Source of the DNA: a virus
IMG/VR virus record: IMGVR_UViG_3300035698_001839
Span: 1-45,370 of that record
Direction: 5' to 3' (one strand)
DNA: 45,370 nucleotides
Shown: piece after piece, positions 8,018 through 45,370 of the stretch
Layout of the letters: each line of letters starts with the position of its first letter
How positions within the stretch are numbered: position 1 is the first letter of the stretch
Made by a program: the position numbers and the translations under genes
Notes under the pieces: model-generated
Told to the model about the DNA's origin: nothing
The model's input: only the letters and a program-made list of their open reading frames with translations
The model's database searches: none

Positions 8018-9564
8018 TACATAAATCCCCTCATTCGATTGACACCCTTGTGTCTGCTTGCGTCCGGTCGTGCTCTGGCTAGCAGCGCTGCTTCCCGGTC
8101 CATTTTGTCAGAGTACATGGCCCACTGCTGTAGGGAGTCCACTCCATTTGATGCACGGTCATGCCGTGGCTTATCCTTCCACACACCATGTGCGCTGTCG
8201 AACTCGAATCGATAGTTATCACAGTGCCGTATTCCATCTATGCACTCCGTTTTATCCATTCGCAATCTACTGAAGTTGGTTCGTAGCTTCTGGATGCTCA
8301 CACCCTTGTCAGCCACCTTATCAACGATCTTGAACTTGACACCCATCTTGGCTATCTCATCCCACAGTTGCTCACCATTGAAAGAGCTACGCTTCTTGAT
8401 GTCGTGAGGTCCAACCCAATCCCGCAAATTCCAACTACGATCAGCAGCTACTTGTCGTACACGAGGTATCCATGTTTCCATTCCATCATCAGTAGCTTCC
8501 ATGTACTTAATGCAGTTTGCATAGTTGCCCATGTTCTGTATGAACCACACAGTCGTTTCATCGTTGATACCGATGTCCCAGAAAGTATCGACAGGTCTGC
8601 CGCTAACTGGTGCAACATCAGTGATACGCATATCCTCACGAGCTTGAGACATCTGAGCTTCAAGTATGAGTCCTTCACCGGATGCTTGGAAGGCTTCCTC
8701 AGGTGTTGATGGATTCTCCTTGAGCATCATCTGTTGAAGTACACCATACTGGGATGTGTACCATGCTCTCTGGTTGGGGTCAGTGAATATACCTTGCTTT
8801 ACCTCAAGCTCCTCGAAGTATTGATGCAACCGCTTAGGTATGTGTACCAGCTTGGTATCTGCATCACTAAGACGATTGGTTTCTTTCTGGTGCCATCCAT
8901 AGAAGTGAAACTTGAAGTCTGTTTCTGCAAGGTATCGCTTCTCCTTCTTCATGTTGCTTGCAGTCTGACATAGGTCAAAGAACAAACCCTCTGATCCCTC
9001 AGCAGTTGATTCGATGAATACCATACCACCAGCATGGACGCCCGGTAAAGAGCCTGACAGTATCTCACGTGCGGCTTCTGGTCTATTTGCAGCAGTATAA
9101 CCAAACTCAGAGATATGGAGCATCTGGGATGTTCCTGATCGACCTGACGTGGCTACTTCGATGGATGAGCCGTTACTGAACTTCATGTTCGTCTTGTTGG
9201 CTTCAGTCAGCTTCACACGATCCCGTATCTCAGGATGAAGGTTCAGATAGGGGTGCATGGCCTTTGTCTCAAGGATGTTGGCAGCATCATCTTTCTTATG
9301 TGCTACGACAACTCCCCTGAAGTTATTTATGAACAACGCGGCATCTAGCGCCATCAACTCGATCAGAGTCGTGCCACCTACCTGCCGTGATTTCAGGAGG
9401 ATGTTCCTGTACCACAGGTTGTCATAGAAGTGCTTCTGCAATGGGCGCATCTTAAACTTGACATTCTCACCCTGCTCATTTAGGACGTAGTACAAGTTGT
9501 TCAAGCGCCACTCTTGGCTTGTTATAGCTGAGTGCTGTAGTTCTGTTGCTTCAAAAGGTTTCAT
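8017..9564 (-). CDS. terL: Terminase large subunit (ATPase and nuclease)
   Basis: The 515-residue motor protein pumps DNA into the procapsid and cuts it. Seen in order: an adenine-binding patch (RPLQKHFYDN, about 40-49), a Walker A variant KSRQVGGTT (58-66), a Walker B-like MLHISEFGY with catalytic Glu (about 148-156), a coupling motif ESTA (185-188), and a nuclease domain with Asp in TFWDIGIND (330), WVGPHD (about 383-388) and HDRASNGVDSL (468-478). An ATG at 9564 overlaps the small subunit stop as ATGA and has GGAAGAGG upstream, so it is preferred to an in-frame ATG 15 bases further upstream. Confidence 0.92.
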   Translation of the reverse strand: MKPFEATELQHSAITSQEWRLNNLYYVLNEQGENVKFKMRPLQKHFYDNLWYRNILLKSRQVGGTTLIELMALDAALFINNFRGVVVAHKKDDAANILETKAMHPYLNLHPEIRDRVKLTEANKTNMKFSNGSSIEVATSGRSGTSQMLHISEFGYTAANRPEAAREILSGSLPGVHAGGMVFIESTAEGSEGLFFDLCQTASNMKKEKRYLAETDFKFHFYGWHQKETNRLSDADTKLVHIPKRLHQYFEELEVKQGIFTDPNQRAWYTSQYGVLQQMMLKENPSTPEEAFQASGEGLILEAQMSQAREDMRITDVAPVSGRPVDTFWDIGINDETTVWFIQNMGNYANCIKYMEATDDGMETWIPRVRQVAADRSWNLRDWVGPHDIKKRSSFNGEQLWDEIAKMGVKFKIVDKVADKGVSIQKLRTNFSRLRMDKTECIDGIRHCDNYRFEFDSAHGVWKDKPRHDRASNGVDSLQQWAMYSDKMDREAALLARARPDASRHKGVNRMRGFM

Positions 9565-16448: not shown

Positions 16449-16744
16449 ACGCTCCTCATTAGTTGTGAAACCACTTCTCGCGTGTGGTACCTGACCATCA
16501 TAGCCAAAACGTCACTCGGCTGATCTAAGTCATGCTTAGTGAATATGCGTATGAAATTATACTCCTCAGGCAACGTCATCATAGGGTCGTACTGCATGAG
16601 TATCTTACCACGTATCCCAGTGCTTCCCGGTATACGGTCATCAGTGATAAACACTCTACCCATCTGGGCATCTACGATATTCTCCTCAAGGTGCGTTCGC
16701 AAGCAGAACTTAAACTCATCCAGTAAATCGAAGTAGTATCTCAT
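16445..16744 (-). CDS. Hypothetical protein
   Basis: This 99-residue protein begins MRYYFDLLDEFKFCL and has an alpha/beta pattern (GRVFITDDRIPGSTG, EYNFIRIFTKHDLDQ). It is not recognised. It overlaps both neighbours by 4 bases (ATGA) in the minus-strand unit that starts at 17247. Confidence 0.6.
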   Translation of the reverse strand: MRYYFDLLDEFKFCLRTHLEENIVDAQMGRVFITDDRIPGSTGIRGKILMQYDPMMTLPEEYNFIRIFTKHDLDQPSDVLAMMVRYHTREVVSQLMRSV

Positions 16745-17247
16745 ATTGACCCCTCTCCCTCGTAGTCGTACTCTATCTGACCCTTCATAGTTTTCTGTGT
16801 GAGATAAGCCAACTCCTGCACCACTTCATTTGATACACCGTTACCCTGAGCGGCATTCCGATAGTAATCCTCATCCTTCACCTGTGTGAGTCGCCACCCG
16901 GCCACCTGATTACTTACTCCTGTCAGCAGCCTGTGCAGCGATGAAGTCGAGATACCTGCTTCTTTCGCTATTCGATTCCGGTACCGGGATATTGTCGTGC
17001 ATGTACCGTCGTCGTTCTTCAACTGGATCTCGTCCATCGCTATGTGACGTGTCGGCGACTTCGCTTGTGGGTTCTTCTTGTAACCCCCGCAGCTCGCTTC
17101 CCCGTAAACACTGTTCTGCCCGTTCAGCATGTTCCATACTCGATTATAAGGTAGATCCATCCGTTTGCACCAGTCGGCTAAGTTGGTCACTTCGATGGGT
17201 GTGCCTACCGGGTCTATGAGATGCCATGTTTTTGCCTTGTTAGCCAT
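16741..17247 (-). CDS. Protein with two NUMOD-like DNA-binding repeats, no nuclease
   Basis: This 168-residue protein has two related modules of about 50 residues. The first (about 7-58) reads WHLIDPVGTPIEVTNLADWC and ends GGYKK; the second (about 74-118) reads IQLKNDDGTCTTI, then IAKEAGISTSSLHRLLTG and AGWRL. This is the pattern of NUMOD1-like recognition modules found behind HNH or GIY-YIG homing nucleases, but no nuclease motif is present. It is the first gene of the leftward unit, adjacent to the repeat-rich control region, so a DNA-binding regulator is plausible. Confidence 0.55.
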   Translation of the reverse strand: MANKAKTWHLIDPVGTPIEVTNLADWCKRMDLPYNRVWNMLNGQNSVYGEASCGGYKKNPQAKSPTRHIAMDEIQLKNDDGTCTTISRYRNRIAKEAGISTSSLHRLLTGVSNQVAGWRLTQVKDEDYYRNAAQGNGVSNEVVQELAYLTQKTMKGQIEYDYEGEGSI

Positions 17248-17348: not shown

Positions 17349-17434
17349 ACTTATGGTACATGGGATACTTATAATAGTTAAAAGTTAATGTTATAAAATG
17401 TAGGTTTCACTTATGGTACATGGGATACTTATAA
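17349..17434 (+). repeat. Direct repeat of 26 bases at 60-base spacing
   Basis: The 26-base sequence beginning ACTTATGGTACATGGG and ending ATACTTATAA occurs at 17349-17374 and again at 17409-17434. Its core ATGGGATACTTATAA recurs inverted at 19429-19443, and AAAGTATCCCATG at 20092-20104 is a shorter inverted relative. The first copy includes TATAAT. It may be a promoter or protein-binding element. Confidence 0.75.
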
Positions 17435-17507
17435 AGAGCTAAACCTAAATTCTTATAATTCATGTGATACTTATAAAGAGCTAAACCTAAATTCTTATAA
17501 TTCATGT
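17424..17507 (+). repeat. Perfect tandem duplication, 42 bp x 2
   Basis: Unit 1 (17424-17465) and unit 2 (17466-17507) are identical. Each begins GATACTTATAAAGAGC and contains CTTATAATTCATGT at its end; a third GATAC starts at 17508. Each unit holds a TATAAT hexamer, so duplicated promoters or iteron-like binding sites are possible. Confidence 0.85.
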
Positions 17508-17603
17508 GATACGGTCCTATTATTACAATGAACCAAAGGTCAAATGAGGCACACCCCCCACTTTGCTAATGTGAGACAGGTATCACATTTGAAAGTTCAT
17601 GGC

Positions 17604-17619
17604 TGGCATCATAGATGCT
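17604..17619. repeat. Dyad TGGCATCATWGATGCT, copy 1
   Basis: This 16-base element contains inverted arms GCATC/GATGC. A second copy lies at 17791-17806 and differs at one base (A to T in the centre). The paired occurrence within a control region suggests a protein-binding site. Confidence 0.6.
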
Positions 17620-17621
17620 TG

Positions 17622-17637
17622 TGTGATACGTGTCACA
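17622..17637. promoter_or_regulatory. CRP-like palindrome, 10/10 match
   Basis: TGTGA-TACGTG-TCACA is a perfect match to the core TGTGA-N6-TCACA recognised by CRP/Vfr-type regulators. It is one of three perfect copies in 1.6 kb. An imperfect copy (TGCGA-CACGTG-TCTCA, 17649-17664) lies 27 bases on, and TGGTA-TACGTG-TCACA follows at 17699-17714. Confidence 0.55.
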
Positions 17638-17790
17638 TGCCAATCCTGTGCGACACGTGTCTCATTGTTGGTCAATCTATAACTGTTTGGGATACTAGTG
17701 GTATACGTGTCACAATTTGGAGCATGTGTGTCGTTGTTTCATCCCATATCAATGCTTCTGTGAATAACTTATCATTATCACTTCGATTGT

Positions 17791-17806: not shown

Positions 17807-17854
17807 ACACGTGTGCGCGTGTGTTTATAACCGCGTGTGTGCATGTGTGCGCGT
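17806..17854. other. Two alternating purine-pyrimidine tracts
   Basis: Bases 17806-17824 (19 bases) and 17832-17854 (23 bases) alternate strictly between pyrimidine and purine and consist mostly of GT, AC and GC steps. Such runs can adopt Z-DNA under negative supercoiling. They are separated by TTATAAC. Confidence 0.6.
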
Positions 17855-18357: not shown

Positions 18358-18373
18358 TGTGACGGTTTTCACA
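18358..18373. promoter_or_regulatory. CRP-like palindrome, 10/10 match
   Basis: TGTGA-CGGTTT-TCACA is a perfect core match. A second box, 19 bases further on, makes this a tandem pair on nearly the same face two helical turns apart. Confidence 0.55.
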
Positions 18374-18376
18374 GTT

Positions 18377-18392
18377 TGTGATCGCGTTTACA
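18377..18392. promoter_or_regulatory. CRP-like box, 9/10 match
   Basis: TGTGA-TCGCGT-TTACA has one mismatch to the core and pairs with the perfect box at 18358-18373. Confidence 0.4.
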
Positions 18393-18551: not shown

Positions 18552-19169
18552 ATGTCTAATGCAATCGAACTTAGCCGCCTTACGTCTGCTGACTTTGCAA
18601 CTGAGACAAAGCGTTTCGTCGATCAACTCGACACACTCCGAAAGGATACCCAAGCGTACTACGTCTGGTTGTTCTCTGGAGCGTGTGAGTATGTCGATAG
18701 CGCCAAGCCTGACCACGAATCCTTAAACACATTGATAAAAGTATCACAGGCGGTCAGCCGTGTCGGTGTATCACGTGACATCATAAACCTTGTGGCTTGC
18801 CATAAAGCTAGCAGCAAGACTGGTGTGTTTCTTAAAGCGTTCCCTAAGAAAGCTAAACTTGACAAGCTACGTGAAGTCAATGGTGATACGTTTGAAGTAT
18901 TGCAAGATCAAGTCGAGGCGTTGATCGCTAAGCATGAATCTGTCAAAGCTGAAAAAGCATCTAAGCCGTGGGATAAAGCTGAAGCGCTTGAAAAGTTTGC
19001 CAAAGCCTACCTGTCACTACTGAACCACGAAAGTGTTAGCGAAGCTGATATCACCGCTGCGATCACTTGTGCTAAGGATGCCAAAGCTGAGGTAGAACGA
19101 ATGAAAGCACCAGTGGCAACCAAAGTATCCAAAGATGCTAAGGCTCCACGTCTTGCCATTGCAGCATGA
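18552..19169 (+). CDS. Early protein of unknown function
   Basis: This 205-residue protein is a stand-alone gene with its own upstream and downstream control sequences. It is mostly helical: TSADFATETKRFVDQL near the start, then KVSQAVSRVGVSRDIIN, and an Ala/Lys-rich C-terminus (ITCAKDAKAEVERMK). It may be an abundant early DNA-binding or host-takeover protein, since it is flanked on both sides by CRP-like boxes. A good AAAGG site lies upstream of the ATG. No family is recognised. Confidence 0.7.
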   Translation: MSNAIELSRLTSADFATETKRFVDQLDTLRKDTQAYYVWLFSGACEYVDSAKPDHESLNTLIKVSQAVSRVGVSRDIINLVACHKASSKTGVFLKAFPKKAKLDKLREVNGDTFEVLQDQVEALIAKHESVKAEKASKPWDKAEALEKFAKAYLSLLNHESVSEADITAAITCAKDAKAEVERMKAPVATKVSKDAKAPRLAIAA

Positions 19170-19181
19170 TACACTGAGTTT

Positions 19182-19197
19182 AGTGATAACTATCACA
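19182..19197. promoter_or_regulatory. CRP-like box, 9/10 match
   Basis: AGTGA-TAACTA-TCACA lies two bases before the perfect box at 19199, just after the 18552 gene. The inner GTGATA/TATCAC arms make it a good palindrome in its own right. Confidence 0.45.
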
Positions 19198-19198
19198 G

Positions 19199-19214
19199 TG
19201 TGACCACTATCACA
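19199..19214. promoter_or_regulatory. CRP-like palindrome, 10/10 match
   Basis: TGTGA-CCACTA-TCACA is the third perfect copy. Its centre is 17 bases from that of the neighbouring box at 19182-19197. Confidence 0.55.
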
Positions 19215-19280
19215 TCTCGATTCACAAGTGAGCACGAATCAAGGATGATTTGTGCCTCCATATAACATGTTGGCACAATA

Positions 19281-19333
19281 CCTACAACAATTGTATGTTG
19301 TGCTAAAAGATGTACAACAAAATAAGTCCTTGA
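19281..19333 (+). repeat. Left arm of 53-bp inverted repeat
   Basis: This arm pairs with 19527-19579. The outer 19 bases match at 18 positions, a 12-base middle is divergent but equal in length, and the next 17 bases (GTACAACAAAATAAGTC) match perfectly. It carries two TACAACAA octamers 30 bases apart (19283 and 19313). Confidence 0.85.
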
Positions 19334-19358
19334 TAACTAAGAGATTAAGTACCCTAAT

Positions 19359-19374
19359 ACTAGTAGGTGTTGTA
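19359..19374 (+). repeat. Inner inverted repeat, left (ACTAGTAGGTGTTGTA)
   Basis: This element pairs with TACAACAACTACTAGT at 19486-19501, with one mismatch. It lies 25 bases inside the 53-bp arm on both sides, so both repeats share one axis of symmetry near 19430. Confidence 0.75.
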
Positions 19375-19485
19375 ACAAATTGAGTTTTTCATTCTGAGAG
19401 CTGGCCTTAAGTATTAACACGAGGGGCTTTATAAGTATCCCATAAACACACTCATAGTATAACTACCTTACAAACCTTAATAAAG

Positions 19486-19501
19486 TACAACAACTACTAG
19501 T
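19486..19501 (-). repeat. Inner inverted repeat, right
   Basis: This is the complement of 19359-19374 in exact register. It contains a further TACAACAA octamer (19486-19493). Confidence 0.75.
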
Positions 19502-19526
19502 AAAGACTATACTCTTTCTATAGAAA

Positions 19527-19579
19527 TCAATGACTTATTTTGTTGTACCTTTTCAACGATAACATACAATTGTTGTATG
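19527..19579 (-). repeat. Right arm of 53-bp inverted repeat
   Basis: This arm is the inverse of 19281-19333. It carries two TTGTTGTA octamers 30 bases apart (19540 and 19570) and the dyad CATACAA-TTG-TTGTATG (19563-19579), which ends 25 bases before the ATG at 19605. Confidence 0.85.
19543..19570 (+). promoter_or_regulatory. Candidate sigma70 promoter of the rightward operon
   Basis: TTGTAC (19543-19548), a 16-base spacer and TACAAT (19565-19570) form a moderate -35/-10 pair ending 34 bases before the ATG at 19605. TTGTTGTA boxes overlap both hexamers, so a protein bound there would repress it. Confidence 0.35.
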
Positions 19580-19604
19580 AATTTCCTAACAATCGGAGAG
19601 AACC

Positions 19605-20027
19605 ATGATCACTTCACAAAACGGTATCCTTGAATCCATTAACGAGACATTGGACATCATTGAGTTTAGCATCGATAACGAGGGCGGCACGTTCGACCCG
19701 TTGACCTCAGAACCGGTACTTCATGACTCAGGCTACATGATAAGTATCTCACATGAAGCACGATTCAGACTCGGCGAGTTTGACACACTGGACGTAATGC
19801 AGCACTTAAACATAATGAACCACGAGATCCAACGGCTTACACATGATAATTACCCTAACCGGTATTTCATTGGAACATGGTTACACGATGACTGTTTATA
19901 CGTCGAGATCAGCATCAATGTTAGCAGCTTGAAGCGAGCATTTGAGCTTGGTGCCCAACACAATCAGCAAGCGATCTATGACTGTAAAGCAGGCAAGAGC
20001 ATAATTTTAGACGGCTCCGCTGCATAG
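19605..20027 (+). CDS. Early protein of unknown function
   Basis: This 140-residue acidic protein is the first gene of the long rightward operon, preceded by GGAGAG seven bases before the ATG. It has an alpha/beta pattern (DIIEFSIDNEGGTF, DCLYVEISINVSSLKRAFEL). No family is recognised. The stop codon lies inside the first copy of a 16-bp tandem repeat. Confidence 0.65.
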   Translation: MITSQNGILESINETLDIIEFSIDNEGGTFDPLTSEPVLHDSGYMISISHEARFRLGEFDTLDVMQHLNIMNHEIQRLTHDNYPNRYFIGTWLHDDCLYVEISINVSSLKRAFELGAQHNQQAIYDCKAGKSIILDGSAA

Positions 20028-24933: not shown

Positions 24934-25516
24934 ATTTTACGTACAGAAGGGATATGCGGACAAGTGGAATGTGTTCGACAATCACCCTGATTCCAAGTAT
25001 GGTGTAGTTGGAGTGCATGGCTCAAGGACACGAGCAGAGTATGCTTGTAACATTCTGAATCAAGGTGTCAGTGATTCACTCAAGGTACATATTCTGAAAG
25101 GTGATCTTTTCAATGCGGTGGAGGCGTGTTACGAGTGGGAGGAGGGTTACCATGAGATCAACAAGGAGCTTGAGACACTGCGAGCTGATAACTCACGACA
25201 GTTCAAGTTAATAGGTGATCGTGAGGATGATATCGCTAGGTGTGGTGTTATGCTTAAAGCTAACGGTGTGACTATAGTTGAGCTGCAAGATACTGTCGAT
25301 AAGTTGAAGAATATGTTGAAGCAGCGTACACTTCGTATCAATGATAAGGATAAGGAGATCGATAATCTTAATTCTGCCCTGAAGCAATTAGAGGGTGACA
25401 ATAAGTGGCTGAGTGGTGTAGTTCTGTTGCTTAGTAGGATCGAAGCCCAGAAGTATCTTGACGGTAACAAAGAGTTAGACGCCGACATCGAAGTTGAAGT
25501 AAGGAGAACGTTCTAA
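24926..25516 (+). CDS. Coiled-coil protein, family member 2
   Basis: This 196-residue protein starts at ATG 24926, overlapping the previous gene by 8 bases. Its N-terminal domain has RFYVQKGYADKWNVFDNHPD and AEYACNILNQ, parallel to member 1. Residues 75-165 form a coiled coil (DTVDKLKNMLKQRTLRINDK). Confidence 0.65.
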   Translation: MSRFYVQKGYADKWNVFDNHPDSKYGVVGVHGSRTRAEYACNILNQGVSDSLKVHILKGDLFNAVEACYEWEEGYHEINKELETLRADNSRQFKLIGDREDDIARCGVMLKANGVTIVELQDTVDKLKNMLKQRTLRINDKDKEIDNLNSALKQLEGDNKWLSGVVLLLSRIEAQKYLDGNKELDADIEVEVRRTF

Positions 25517-30982: not shown

Positions 30983-31191
30983 GTAAAGTTAAGGTTAACG
31001 TACACTTGAGCGAGGGTTTCGATTATCATTGGAACATCGAGATCGATCAAGCTGACTATGATAGATTCAAGGGTAACCACGGATACGATAGGTACGATTT
31101 CTATGAATGGGCTGATGAGCAGGGTCTATTACCCAAGGAAGATCGAGGAGACAATTGCCTATTCGAGATTGCCGTGGACAAAGTACCATGA
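30979..31191 (+). CDS. Small protein, GTG start
   Basis: This 70-residue protein starts with GTG in a GTGA overlap. It has a beta strand pair (KVKVNVHLSEGFDYHWNIEI) and an acidic aromatic region (YDRYDFYEWADEQG). It is coupled by ATGA to the sigma-factor gene. Confidence 0.6.
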   Translation: MSKVKVNVHLSEGFDYHWNIEIDQADYDRFKGNHGYDRYDFYEWADEQGLLPKEDRGDNCLFEIAVDKVP

Positions 31192-31916
31192 ATACTATAA
31201 TTGAGCAGAAGAGTGACGCTGATGTGTATCGATACTGCGCTTATGTATTTGATCAGAAGTTTCACACTCGTGGTATCGAAGTGAGAGAGGACTACATACA
31301 ACATGCAGTAACCGACATATGGAAGCAGCGTGATAAATATGATCCTGATAAAGCTGGTGTAAATACATGGCTGTGGAACATTATATACTACGCCATGCTG
31401 ACTCAATCTGGTAACAAGGTTCACAAGGTATCGACAGAGTGTAGGCCCGATGGTCACTACGAGATGGGTAGGTTCTTAGAAGACAGTTTCACTGTAGAAG
31501 ATCCTGAACGGCTTGATCCAGATCCTTACGCTGAGTTCATGGCTAAGCTGAAGTCAGGAGGCTTCAACCTACCTGCTAAGCAGAACGAGACTATCATGGA
31601 TATGCTGTCTGGTGATGAGACACAGATGCAGATTGCTAAGCGACTTGGCGTATCTTATCAGGTTATAGGTGCTCGGTACCGGGATGTTAAGCTCAATCTC
31701 AAGAAGCGGATAGACCCTGATTACATAGAACAGACCCGGCCTAAGTATTACTGCTTCAGGAGTCCCGAAGGTAAGCTCATGAGGACTCATTGTCTCAAGC
31801 AGTTTGCTATGAAGCATGGCTTAGATGTGAGACGATTGCAGGAAGTTCAGAAGGGTAAGCGGGAGCACCATAAGAAGTGGGCACGTTACTATACCGTGAG
31901 GAACAACTATGTTTAA
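31188..31916 (+). CDS. ECF-like sigma factor with C-terminal NUMOD1-like tail
   Basis: This 242-residue protein starts at ATG 31188 (ATGA overlap). Residues 36-70 resemble sigma region 2 (YIQHAVTDIWKQRDKYDPDK, then NTWLWNIIYYAML). Residues 128-175 resemble region 4 with an HTH (ETQMQIAKRLGVSYQVIGAR). Residues 187-233 add a NUMOD1-like module (YYCFRSPEGKLMRTHCLKQF ... GKREHHKKWARYY) not normal for sigma factors. It would redirect host RNA polymerase to phage promoters; phage phiEco32 gp36 is a known precedent for an ECF-type phage sigma factor. Region calls are by pattern. Confidence 0.65.
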   Translation: MNTIIEQKSDADVYRYCAYVFDQKFHTRGIEVREDYIQHAVTDIWKQRDKYDPDKAGVNTWLWNIIYYAMLTQSGNKVHKVSTECRPDGHYEMGRFLEDSFTVEDPERLDPDPYAEFMAKLKSGGFNLPAKQNETIMDMLSGDETQMQIAKRLGVSYQVIGARYRDVKLNLKKRIDPDYIEQTRPKYYCFRSPEGKLMRTHCLKQFAMKHGLDVRRLQEVQKGKREHHKKWARYYTVRNNYV

Positions 31917-43679: not shown

Positions 43680-45370
43680 CTAGAAATACTTGCTTGCGAA
43701 TTGTGCGGGAGTCGCAGCTTCACCCTTTGAAATTCCCAGTATGTGCATCAGCTCTACTGAATCGCTGAAGTCTACCTTGTTACTGATACGGTTGAACGCC
43801 AGTGTCCACTGTGAACCATAGCGACTTGCCTTAGCCTTAGCTCGGAATGAACTATCTCCGGCACCGCTATTCAAGTCAGGCGTGGAGTTCTCACGGTTAC
43901 CATCATCAATACGAACATACGTGGCATAGTCTTCGACAGTCTTAAGACCTGCTGTAGTTGTGTTGTTCTCATTCCAACCGTGACTGTGTTGTATGACTAT
44001 GATGTTCTTCAGCTTAGCATTTGACACACCCTGTGAACGCAATCGATTGATCACGGTAGCAGTGAAGTCAGACGGACCACCTTCAGCCACAAACACGTGA
44101 TGCCCTGCGTCGAGTGTTATCTTCCACATGGCAGCTAACGTGTTACGTGTTCCAGTAGGACTGGCAAAAGCATCAAGTCCATCAGGAAACATAGTCTTCA
44201 TGTGAGCTGTGGAACCTGAGAGTATGCTGTTGTGAGCAACCCGCTTAGTCCCATTGACCGCAACGAAATCTATAACAGGATGGTCATCGAGTATTTCTCT
44301 GTTGGCAATCATAGCTTGCAGATCATCTGGATCATTTGAGCTATCGAAGTGCATTGATACCAGATCACCGGTTTGATACAGACCGAAGGATTGATTTACT
44401 GGAGTGGTGGAACCCACCTTCTTCAGCCCTATCCAATCAATCTCAAATCCCTTAGAACGTCCCGATATAGTCAGAGCTACAGCCCCGGCTGGTACATTTC
44501 CTTGCAGCAAGGTGGTGTTCCTATTACCACCTTCCTCACCGATAAGGTTCTCACTGAAGCCTTGAGTGTTCTGTCCTATGTAAACTTTGACCCAATTACG
44601 ATCTCCAAACTTCACCCACACGTCATTTGGCGGCTCCGACTGGACAGCGTGATTGATCTTACCGCGCATGATGAACTGGTATTTGCCAGCAGTCGGCACG
44701 TTCAGGATGTAATCTGCGTTGCCATCGTCTCGTCTTTCGCTCATACGATATCGATTTGGCCCGTTCCACACGATTCCTGCTCCCGTGCGGCCCCAGTTAC
44801 TCGTAAATGACCCTGACTCTGCCTGAGCTATCAGTCCAGATACAGGCGTCACAGGAGGCTCTGAGGAGCTTACAGCGGCACTTGGTGGGAAGGTCCATTT
44901 AGGCCCAATCTTGTAGCAGCCTGATTTACCCTGATCTACTCGACCGGGGCACTGATTCCGATCCTCATCTCCGGCATTGTTTGCTGGACCGTTGCCACAC
45001 TGGACATCGTTATAGATGGGGTCACCTGACTTGCGCGAAGGCTTGCCGTTGCGTTCCTGATAGGCTGCGATCTCACGTACTGTCTTGTTTCCGATAGGAG
45101 TCTGCACTCGAACAGATCCAATACCGTGATCGTAGTTGGACGAGTTGATCCAGCAGATTCCCTTGTTCTGGAAACTATCATGCCAGCCTACACCATCAGG
45201 GCCATTGCCAGTGTAGTTACCGGAGATAGTTGTGTGTACATTCTGGCCTGTTACCACTGGTGGCACAACTATAGGTGGCACAACTACAGGTGGCACAACT
45301 ACAGGTGGCACAACTACAGGTGGCACAACTACAGGTGGCACAACTACAGGTGGCACAACTACAGGTGGCA
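43680..45370 (-). CDS. Large tail/receptor-type protein with nucleoside-hydrolase-like domain (5' end beyond window)
   Basis: The frame is open to the right edge, so the true start lies outside; 563 codons are visible. In order: VVVPP repeats (linker or stalk), a Cys-containing domain (about 40-150 of the visible part), a beta-rich domain like a carbohydrate-binding module (about 175-325, QAESGSFTSNWGRTGAGI ... KGFEIDWIGLKK), and a C-terminal domain (about 340-558) starting LVSMHFDSSNDPDDLQAMIA, where NDPDD resembles the metal site of nucleoside hydrolases and DUF1593 proteins. It may bind and trim surface glycans. The enzyme call is by motif only. Confidence 0.6.
   Translation of the reverse strand, partial: PPVVVPPVVVPPVVVPPVVVPPVVVPPVVVPPIVVPPVVTGQNVHTTISGNYTGNGPDGVGWHDSFQNKGICWINSSNYDHGIGSVRVQTPIGNKTVREIAAYQERNGKPSRKSGDPIYNDVQCGNGPANNAGDEDRNQCPGRVDQGKSGCYKIGPKWTFPPSAAVSSSEPPVTPVSGLIAQAESGSFTSNWGRTGAGIVWNGPNRYRMSERRDDGNADYILNVPTAGKYQFIMRGKINHAVQSEPPNDVWVKFGDRNWVKVYIGQNTQGFSENLIGEEGGNRNTTLLQGNVPAGAVALTISGRSKGFEIDWIGLKKVGSTTPVNQSFGLYQTGDLVSMHFDSSNDPDDLQAMIANREILDDHPVIDFVAVNGTKRVAHNSILSGSTAHMKTMFPDGLDAFASPTGTRNTLAAMWKITLDAGHHVFVAEGGPSDFTATVINRLRSQGVSNAKLKNIIVIQHSHGWNENNTTTAGLKTVEDYATYVRIDDGNRENSTPDLNSGAGDSSFRAKAKASRYGSQWTLAFNRISNKVDFSDSVELMHILGISKGEAATPAQFASKYF
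45259..45370 (-). repeat. 15-bp tandem repeat encoding VVVPP units
   Basis: GGTGGCACAACTACA is repeated seven times (one copy has TATA for TACA) and continues to the window edge. On the minus strand each unit encodes Val-Val-Val-Pro-Pro. It is a coding repeat that can vary in copy number by slippage. Confidence 0.9.

Follow-up and report, generated by a model that had tools for sequence, protein, structure and literature searches.

The window, by which we mean the whole stretch of DNA that was analysed (45,370 nucleotides), comes from an unclassified tailed phage, as judged from its proteins. The major capsid, portal-type and terminase proteins matched phage families, and the replication set consisted of a DNA polymerase, an exonuclease, an SSB-like protein, a helicase and a primase/helicase. 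Between the genes at 18552-19169 and 19605-20027 lies a stretch of 435 bp without a gene, which contains a large dyad with repeated boxes. The positions of the features are collected in Table 1.

Table 1. Features of the dyad and its surroundings, with the primase/helicase gene; positions are those of the window.
Feature	Position	Strand	Remark
TTATAAGTATCCCAT element, three leftward copies before the late operon	17360..17476	-	one copy with one mismatch
Two tandem TGTGA-N6-TCACA palindromes, CRP-like	19182..19214		one base off and exact, respectively
Left outer arm	19277..19339		81% complementary to 19521-19583
Block A, TACAACAATTGTATGTT	19283..19299	+ (box on + strand)	identical to its mirror partner A'
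Block B, GTACAACAAAATAAGTC-N-TTGAT	19312..19334	+ (box on + strand, overlapping the IHF match)	one base differs from mirror block B'
IHF consensus match TATCAAGGACTTA	19323..19335	-	the 45 kb contain three WATCAANNNNTTR matches, this one included
Block C, TACTAGTAG-N-TGTTGTA	19358..19374	- (box on - strand)	from the comparison of the arms
Asymmetric centre, 66% AT	19375..19485		from the comparison of the arms
TTATAAGTATCCCAT, directional promoter-like element	19429..19443	+	points at the rightward operon, about 160 bp before gene 19605
Block C'	19486..19502	+ (box on + strand)	mirror of block C
Right outer arm	19521..19583		partner of the left arm
IHF consensus match AATCAATGACTTA	19525..19537	+	mirrors 19323-19335; the starts are 202 bp apart
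Block B'	19526..19548	- (box on - strand)	mirror of block B
Block A'	19561..19577	- (box on - strand)	mirror of block A; 28 bases before the ATG of 19605
First gene right of the dyad	19605..20027	+	no function assigned
Primase/helicase, 867 residues	32218..34821	+	FDID primase-type motif, PriCT_2, SF3-type helicase; candidate initiator

The two 63-nt outer arms of the dyad matched at 51 of 63 positions, and the inner arms (blocks C and C'), which lie 25 bases inside the outer pair on both sides, share their axis at 19430.0. The preliminary description had proposed this nested arrangement around one axis near 19430, and all of its coordinates were confirmed. In an ungapped inverted-repeat search the dyad scored 28, while 200 dinucleotide shuffles of the stretch gave a maximum of 13. 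It was also the strongest inverted repeat of the 45-kb contig when partners within 500 bp were considered, the runner-up scoring 14. The octamer TACAACAA occurred five times in 45 kb and each time within the dyad, where a near-copy, TGTTGTA, lies at 19368-19374; the dyad contains six TACAACA boxes. The commonest 7-mer (six copies) and 8-mer (five copies) of the intergenic stretch were reached in none of 300 shuffles. Nucleotide searches of phage and plasmid collections yielded no relative of the region, and a scan of viral contigs for two octamers about 30 bases apart returned mostly same-strand copies and no mirrored relative.

Comparison of each arm with its mirror arm showed that blocks A, B and C are identical or nearly so, that the spacers between them have diverged, and that every block contains a TACAACA box. 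As box-sized stretches were kept while the remainder drifted, the arms look like a set of protein sites and not like a base-paired stem. Two features had been missed in the preliminary description. The first concerns stability: by nearest-neighbour energy no other 300-bp window of the contig is as unstable as 19289-19588, and 19427-19526 is its second least stable 100-bp window. The second is the IHF consensus WATCAANNNNTTR, matched perfectly within block B and mirrored in both arms. The two matches face each other (minus strand, then plus strand) with 189 bp between them and account for two thirds of the WATCAANNNNTTR matches of the contig. A reading of the boxes as sigma-70 promoters was tried, and the match was unconvincing on inspection. 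DnaA boxes (TTATNCACA) were absent from the control region, the single copy in 45 kb being located at about 9.5 kb, and a DnaA-dependent origin was therefore dropped.

Mirrored boxes with IHF sites are found in general at recombination, partition and packaging sites, and the dyad could be one of these and neither an origin nor a switch. Among the proteins scanned no integrase or partition gene was recognised, and the terminase lies 10 kb from the dyad. We regard such a site as highly improbable.

An inverted motif, ATGGGATACTTATAA, had been described on the axis of the dyad. It does start at the axis, and it is not symmetric: it is better read as TTATAAGTATCCCAT, an asymmetric and directional element. 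Since TTATAAGTATCCCAT is present three times in leftward orientation before the late operon and once in rightward orientation at the axis, it behaves like a promoter element and not like a part of the dyad. The leftward copies lie in three 42-bp direct repeats at 17350-17493, each of which carries TTATAAGTATCCCAT on the minus strand; a phage sigma factor may use these repeats as late promoters in tandem. The gene at 31155-31916 encodes a sigma-70/ECF-like protein (TIGR02937, E 5e-8, under the family cut-off) with an HNH-family-like C-terminal stretch, and it is a candidate partner of the TTATAAGTATCCCAT element.

Several other features were recorded in the control region and elsewhere on the contig. 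TGTGA-N6-TCACA palindromes, which are CRP-like or may serve a phage regulator, are clustered at 17572-17714, 18358-18392 and 19182-19214, and seven of the nine near-matches of the contig fall in the control region. The first late gene (16741-17247) has weak HNH/HTH matches, is kept beside the control region in the relative G2 described below, and is a candidate regulator. A GT-rich hairpin, CGCGTGTGTGCATGTGTGCGCG, followed by TTCTTCTTCT, at 17832-17853 resembles a terminator. A 25-bp direct repeat (96% identical) was found at two distant places, 9527-9551 and 25408-25432. At the end of the contig a 15-bp tandem repeat (45238-45370) lies within a leftward ORF, and the contig probably breaks there.

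The first useful relatives, G2 and G3, were obtained via the terminase. Both are uncultured virus contigs (62 kb and 42 kb) with the same gene order as the window and 53-60% identity in terminase and portal proteins. When terminase, major capsid and exonuclease were used as alignment queries, the results were mostly distant phages, with one additional relative, G28 (L341), likewise uncultured. In the gap between the leftward late and the rightward early operons G2 contains eight copies of TATAACA, which is one transition apart from TACAACA, and G3 contains six copies of TAACACAA in two dyads. The partners of the G3 dyads are about 110 bp apart, and these dyads rank first and third by strength among the inverted repeats of 40 kb. 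The best 7-mer count of the window, G2 and G3 was reached in none of 300 shuffles in each case. With box clusters at the same inter-operon place in three phages, the arrangement has been kept while the box has changed. The preliminary description had let its reading depend on whether relatives with the same gene order have the dyad. The outcome was in its favour, as both G2 and G3 have a separate box cluster or dyads at this place. The control regions of G2 and G3 are not the least stable DNA of these contigs. In G28 the early region is rearranged, the primase gene is inverted and the corresponding gap contains unrelated repeats; a repeat similar to GGCAYGAWTCTT occurs about five times in its control region (L341, 17255-17664) and does not resemble the boxes of the relatives. 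The cumulative GC skew had its minimum at the control region in three phages. It follows gene orientation, third-position skew gave no separate replication signal, and the skew was set aside as origin evidence because of this confounding.

The relatives also bear on whether the dyad acts after transcription as a long RNA hairpin, for example in the attenuation or processing of transcripts of the rightward operon. The folded RNA was far more stable than shuffled sequences (z -9.2), as is expected of any such inverted repeat. Transcripts from the axis element would miss the left arm, the conserved blocks are of box size and include IHF matches, and no Rfam family matched. G2 has kept boxes but has little inverted-repeat structure. 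A structured RNA is for these reasons a very unlikely explanation.

The products of 18005, 18552 and 19605 had been suggested as binders of the boxes. No support was obtained for this: the syntenic phages have no relative of 18005 or 18552, and the relative of 19605 was confined to G3, where it lies away from the boxes; searches of viral contigs with proteins 18552 and 19605 yielded no relative. The conserved primase/helicase is a better candidate. It contains FDID and GGIGKS motifs and a P-loop helicase domain and gave a weak hit to P4-family primases. PriCT_2 and DUF5906 were above the Pfam cut-off in the proteins of the window, G2 and G28. Primase and SF3-type helicase are thus fused in one phage protein, which is of the self-loading initiator kind. 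A sequence search found no solved relative. The model of the full-length protein had a pLDDT of 34. A model of the C-terminal 130 residues (pLDDT 62) was weakly winged-helix-like, and its structural neighbours were mostly winged helices, none of them significant (best Foldseek E 0.68; VIA Z 5.4).

The Vibrio phages 1.017.O and LP.1 were picked because they have the closest DNA polymerase in the phage collection (38-39% identity); the replication genes of 1.017.O are related to those of the window. In both phages the strongest inverted repeats and octamer clusters are located in the gap directly behind a gene annotated as bifunctional primase/polymerase, and the 300 bp of lowest stability in the stretch examined fall in this gap. 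In LP.1 (L004, 14926-15336) CGGATA is present 11 times behind the primase gene, first in six minus-strand and then in five plus-strand copies. In 1.017.O the gap contains five copies of CGGATA and two IHF consensus matches, at 849 (minus) and 1051 (plus). These matches are 202 bp apart start to start with 189 bp between them, so that orientation and gap are equal to those of the pair in the window. The pair in 1.017.O was the only one of that orientation at 150-260 bp in 5.6 Mb of compared loci, the window itself being left out. The chance expectation for such pairs was 0.65 over all 5.6 Mb and about 6e-5 per 500 bp, figures that are a guide and not a strict probability, because there is redundancy among the compared loci and, within each dyad, one arm is a copy of the other. 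The mirrored IHF pair was common to only two of the phages examined, the window and 1.017.O, and was absent from G2 and G3.

Four further phages with related primases gave a mixed picture. In Aeromonas phage BUCT552, which gave the best phage hit to the window primase, the gap before the primase operon contains a perfect inverted repeat of 16 bp (loop of 180), and the least stable 300 bp of this phage are likewise in this gap. In Kokobel1 all three IHF matches lie in the gap behind the primase gene. P106B and BUCT791, two of the six sampled phages with related primases, lacked a clear dyad near the primase gene.

The dyad could instead be a transcription switch, in which a phage regulator on the mirrored boxes and bending by IHF would loop the promoter-like element at the axis and so set early against late expression, as do phi29 p4/p6 and the looping repressors of temperate phages. 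The single TTATAAGTATCCCAT copy facing the early operon and the three facing the late operon are consistent with this, as are the sigma-factor-like protein and the position of the last box, about 17-30 bases before the first early ATG in the window, G2 and G3. In phi29 the DNA between the early and the late promoters is shaped into a hairpin by p4 and p6 (PMC3100819). The window resembles phi29 in having a control region between early and late promoters, and in phi29 the DNA of this region is bent by phage proteins. It differs in that no p4 or p6 relative was recognised and in its IHF matches and box numbers. No repressor, integrase or conserved box regulator was recognised in the window, where many small early proteins had no family match, and the TACAACAA octamer is present at no other promoter of the contig. 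The matching dyads of the Vibrio phages stand behind the primase gene, a location that is hard to explain for a switch. We consider a switch rather unlikely.

Several known systems combine a primase or helicase protein with repeats. The pRN1 protein has an AEP primase, an SF3 helicase and a winged helix, and a stem-loop is its putative origin; for phage BIP-1 a pRN1-type stem-loop origin has only been proposed (PMC4234260). As in pRN1 and BIP-1, the window links a large inverted repeat with poor sequence conservation to a primase and SF3-type helicase protein, and PriCT_2 is common to the BIP-1 and window proteins. The pRN1 element is a single 100-bp stem-loop without iterons directly behind the gene, whereas the dyad has three boxes per arm and an IHF match and lies 12.6 kb upstream of the primase gene. 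P4 alpha also combines primase and helicase in one protein and binds short repeats at its origin (PMC4234260); its primase is of the Toprim type, in contrast to the archaeo-eukaryotic-type motif of the window protein and the mirrored arms with IHF matches. SaPI Rep and SCCmec Cch2 bind clusters of short repeats that serve a self-loading helicase, but their origins are directly behind the helicase gene, and the available portion of the source does not describe a mirrored IHF pair (PMC7581432). The NrS-1 polymerase, with Prim/Pol, helix-bundle and helicase domains, recognises an octamer that has been suggested as its origin and is present in one copy per strand (PMC8718748, PMC7102993). The phage of the window differs in having a separate DNA polymerase. 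The NrS-1 octamer TTTGGTTA was found once in the window, at 9098, outside the dyad and at chance level, and an NrS-1-type priming site at the dyad was dropped. The elements of 1.017.O and LP.1 share with the dyad repeated boxes in mirror order, IHF matches and least stable DNA, and for 1.017.O also identical IHF spacing and orientation; they differ in the box, CGGATA, and in their location directly behind the primase gene.

The preliminary description had seen in the dyad a site where a multimeric protein loops or wraps DNA, at an origin or a switch. The box clusters of two relatives and the IHF-bearing dyad of the Vibrio phage tip this choice towards an origin, with the switch as a rival, and the dyad is probably the replication origin of the phage or its core. 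An origin is the most economical reading since proteins of like build in pRN1, P4, SaPI and SCCmec elements have been reported or proposed to start replication at a stem-loop or at short repeats. The conservation of the arms as discrete box-sized blocks, and not over their whole length, supports it. Further support comes from the box clusters at the same inter-operon place in the two relatives with the same gene order, from the dyads or box clusters with least stable DNA behind the primase genes of 1.017.O and LP.1, and from the geometry of the IHF matches of 1.017.O. The inverted repeat and least stable DNA before the primase operon of BUCT552 point the same way, as do the self-loading-initiator domains of the replication protein. 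Several observations count against an origin. The distance of 12.6 kb to the primase gene is unlike that of origins of the pRN1 or SaPI type, the GC-skew minimum is explained by gene orientation, and a C-terminal winged helix is only weakly suggested by the model. In addition, G2 and G3 do not have the mirrored IHF pair and are less stable elsewhere than in their control regions, the repeats of G28 are unrelated, and P106B and BUCT791 have no clear dyad near the primase gene.

As initiator, the primase/helicase of the phage itself is the most likely candidate. Copies of this protein would occupy the TACAACA boxes of both mirror arms, and IHF of the host would bend each arm at the site in block B. 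The arms would then fold together over the AT-rich centre, which would melt, and helicase and primase would be loaded for replication. The rightward promoter-like element at the axis may couple early transcription to the same complex. Origin and transcription control often share one region in phages, and the functions of origin and switch may coexist here.

To our knowledge, hardly any origin has been mapped in lytic tailed phages with primase/SF3-helicase proteins. It is possible, though we put this forward tentatively, that the dyad represents an undescribed and recurring kind of phage origin, with mirrored arms and with initiator boxes beside IHF sites that are exactly 189 bp apart. The frame of such an origin would be fixed across distant phages, while the box and the specificity of the initiator would change freely and the element would move between the primase gene and the operon junction. 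Mirrored boxes and facing IHF sites placed over the least stable DNA make up an anatomical rule that allows searches across many phages. Phages in which the frame is the same and the box differs would permit direct tests of initiator specificity with purified proteins.
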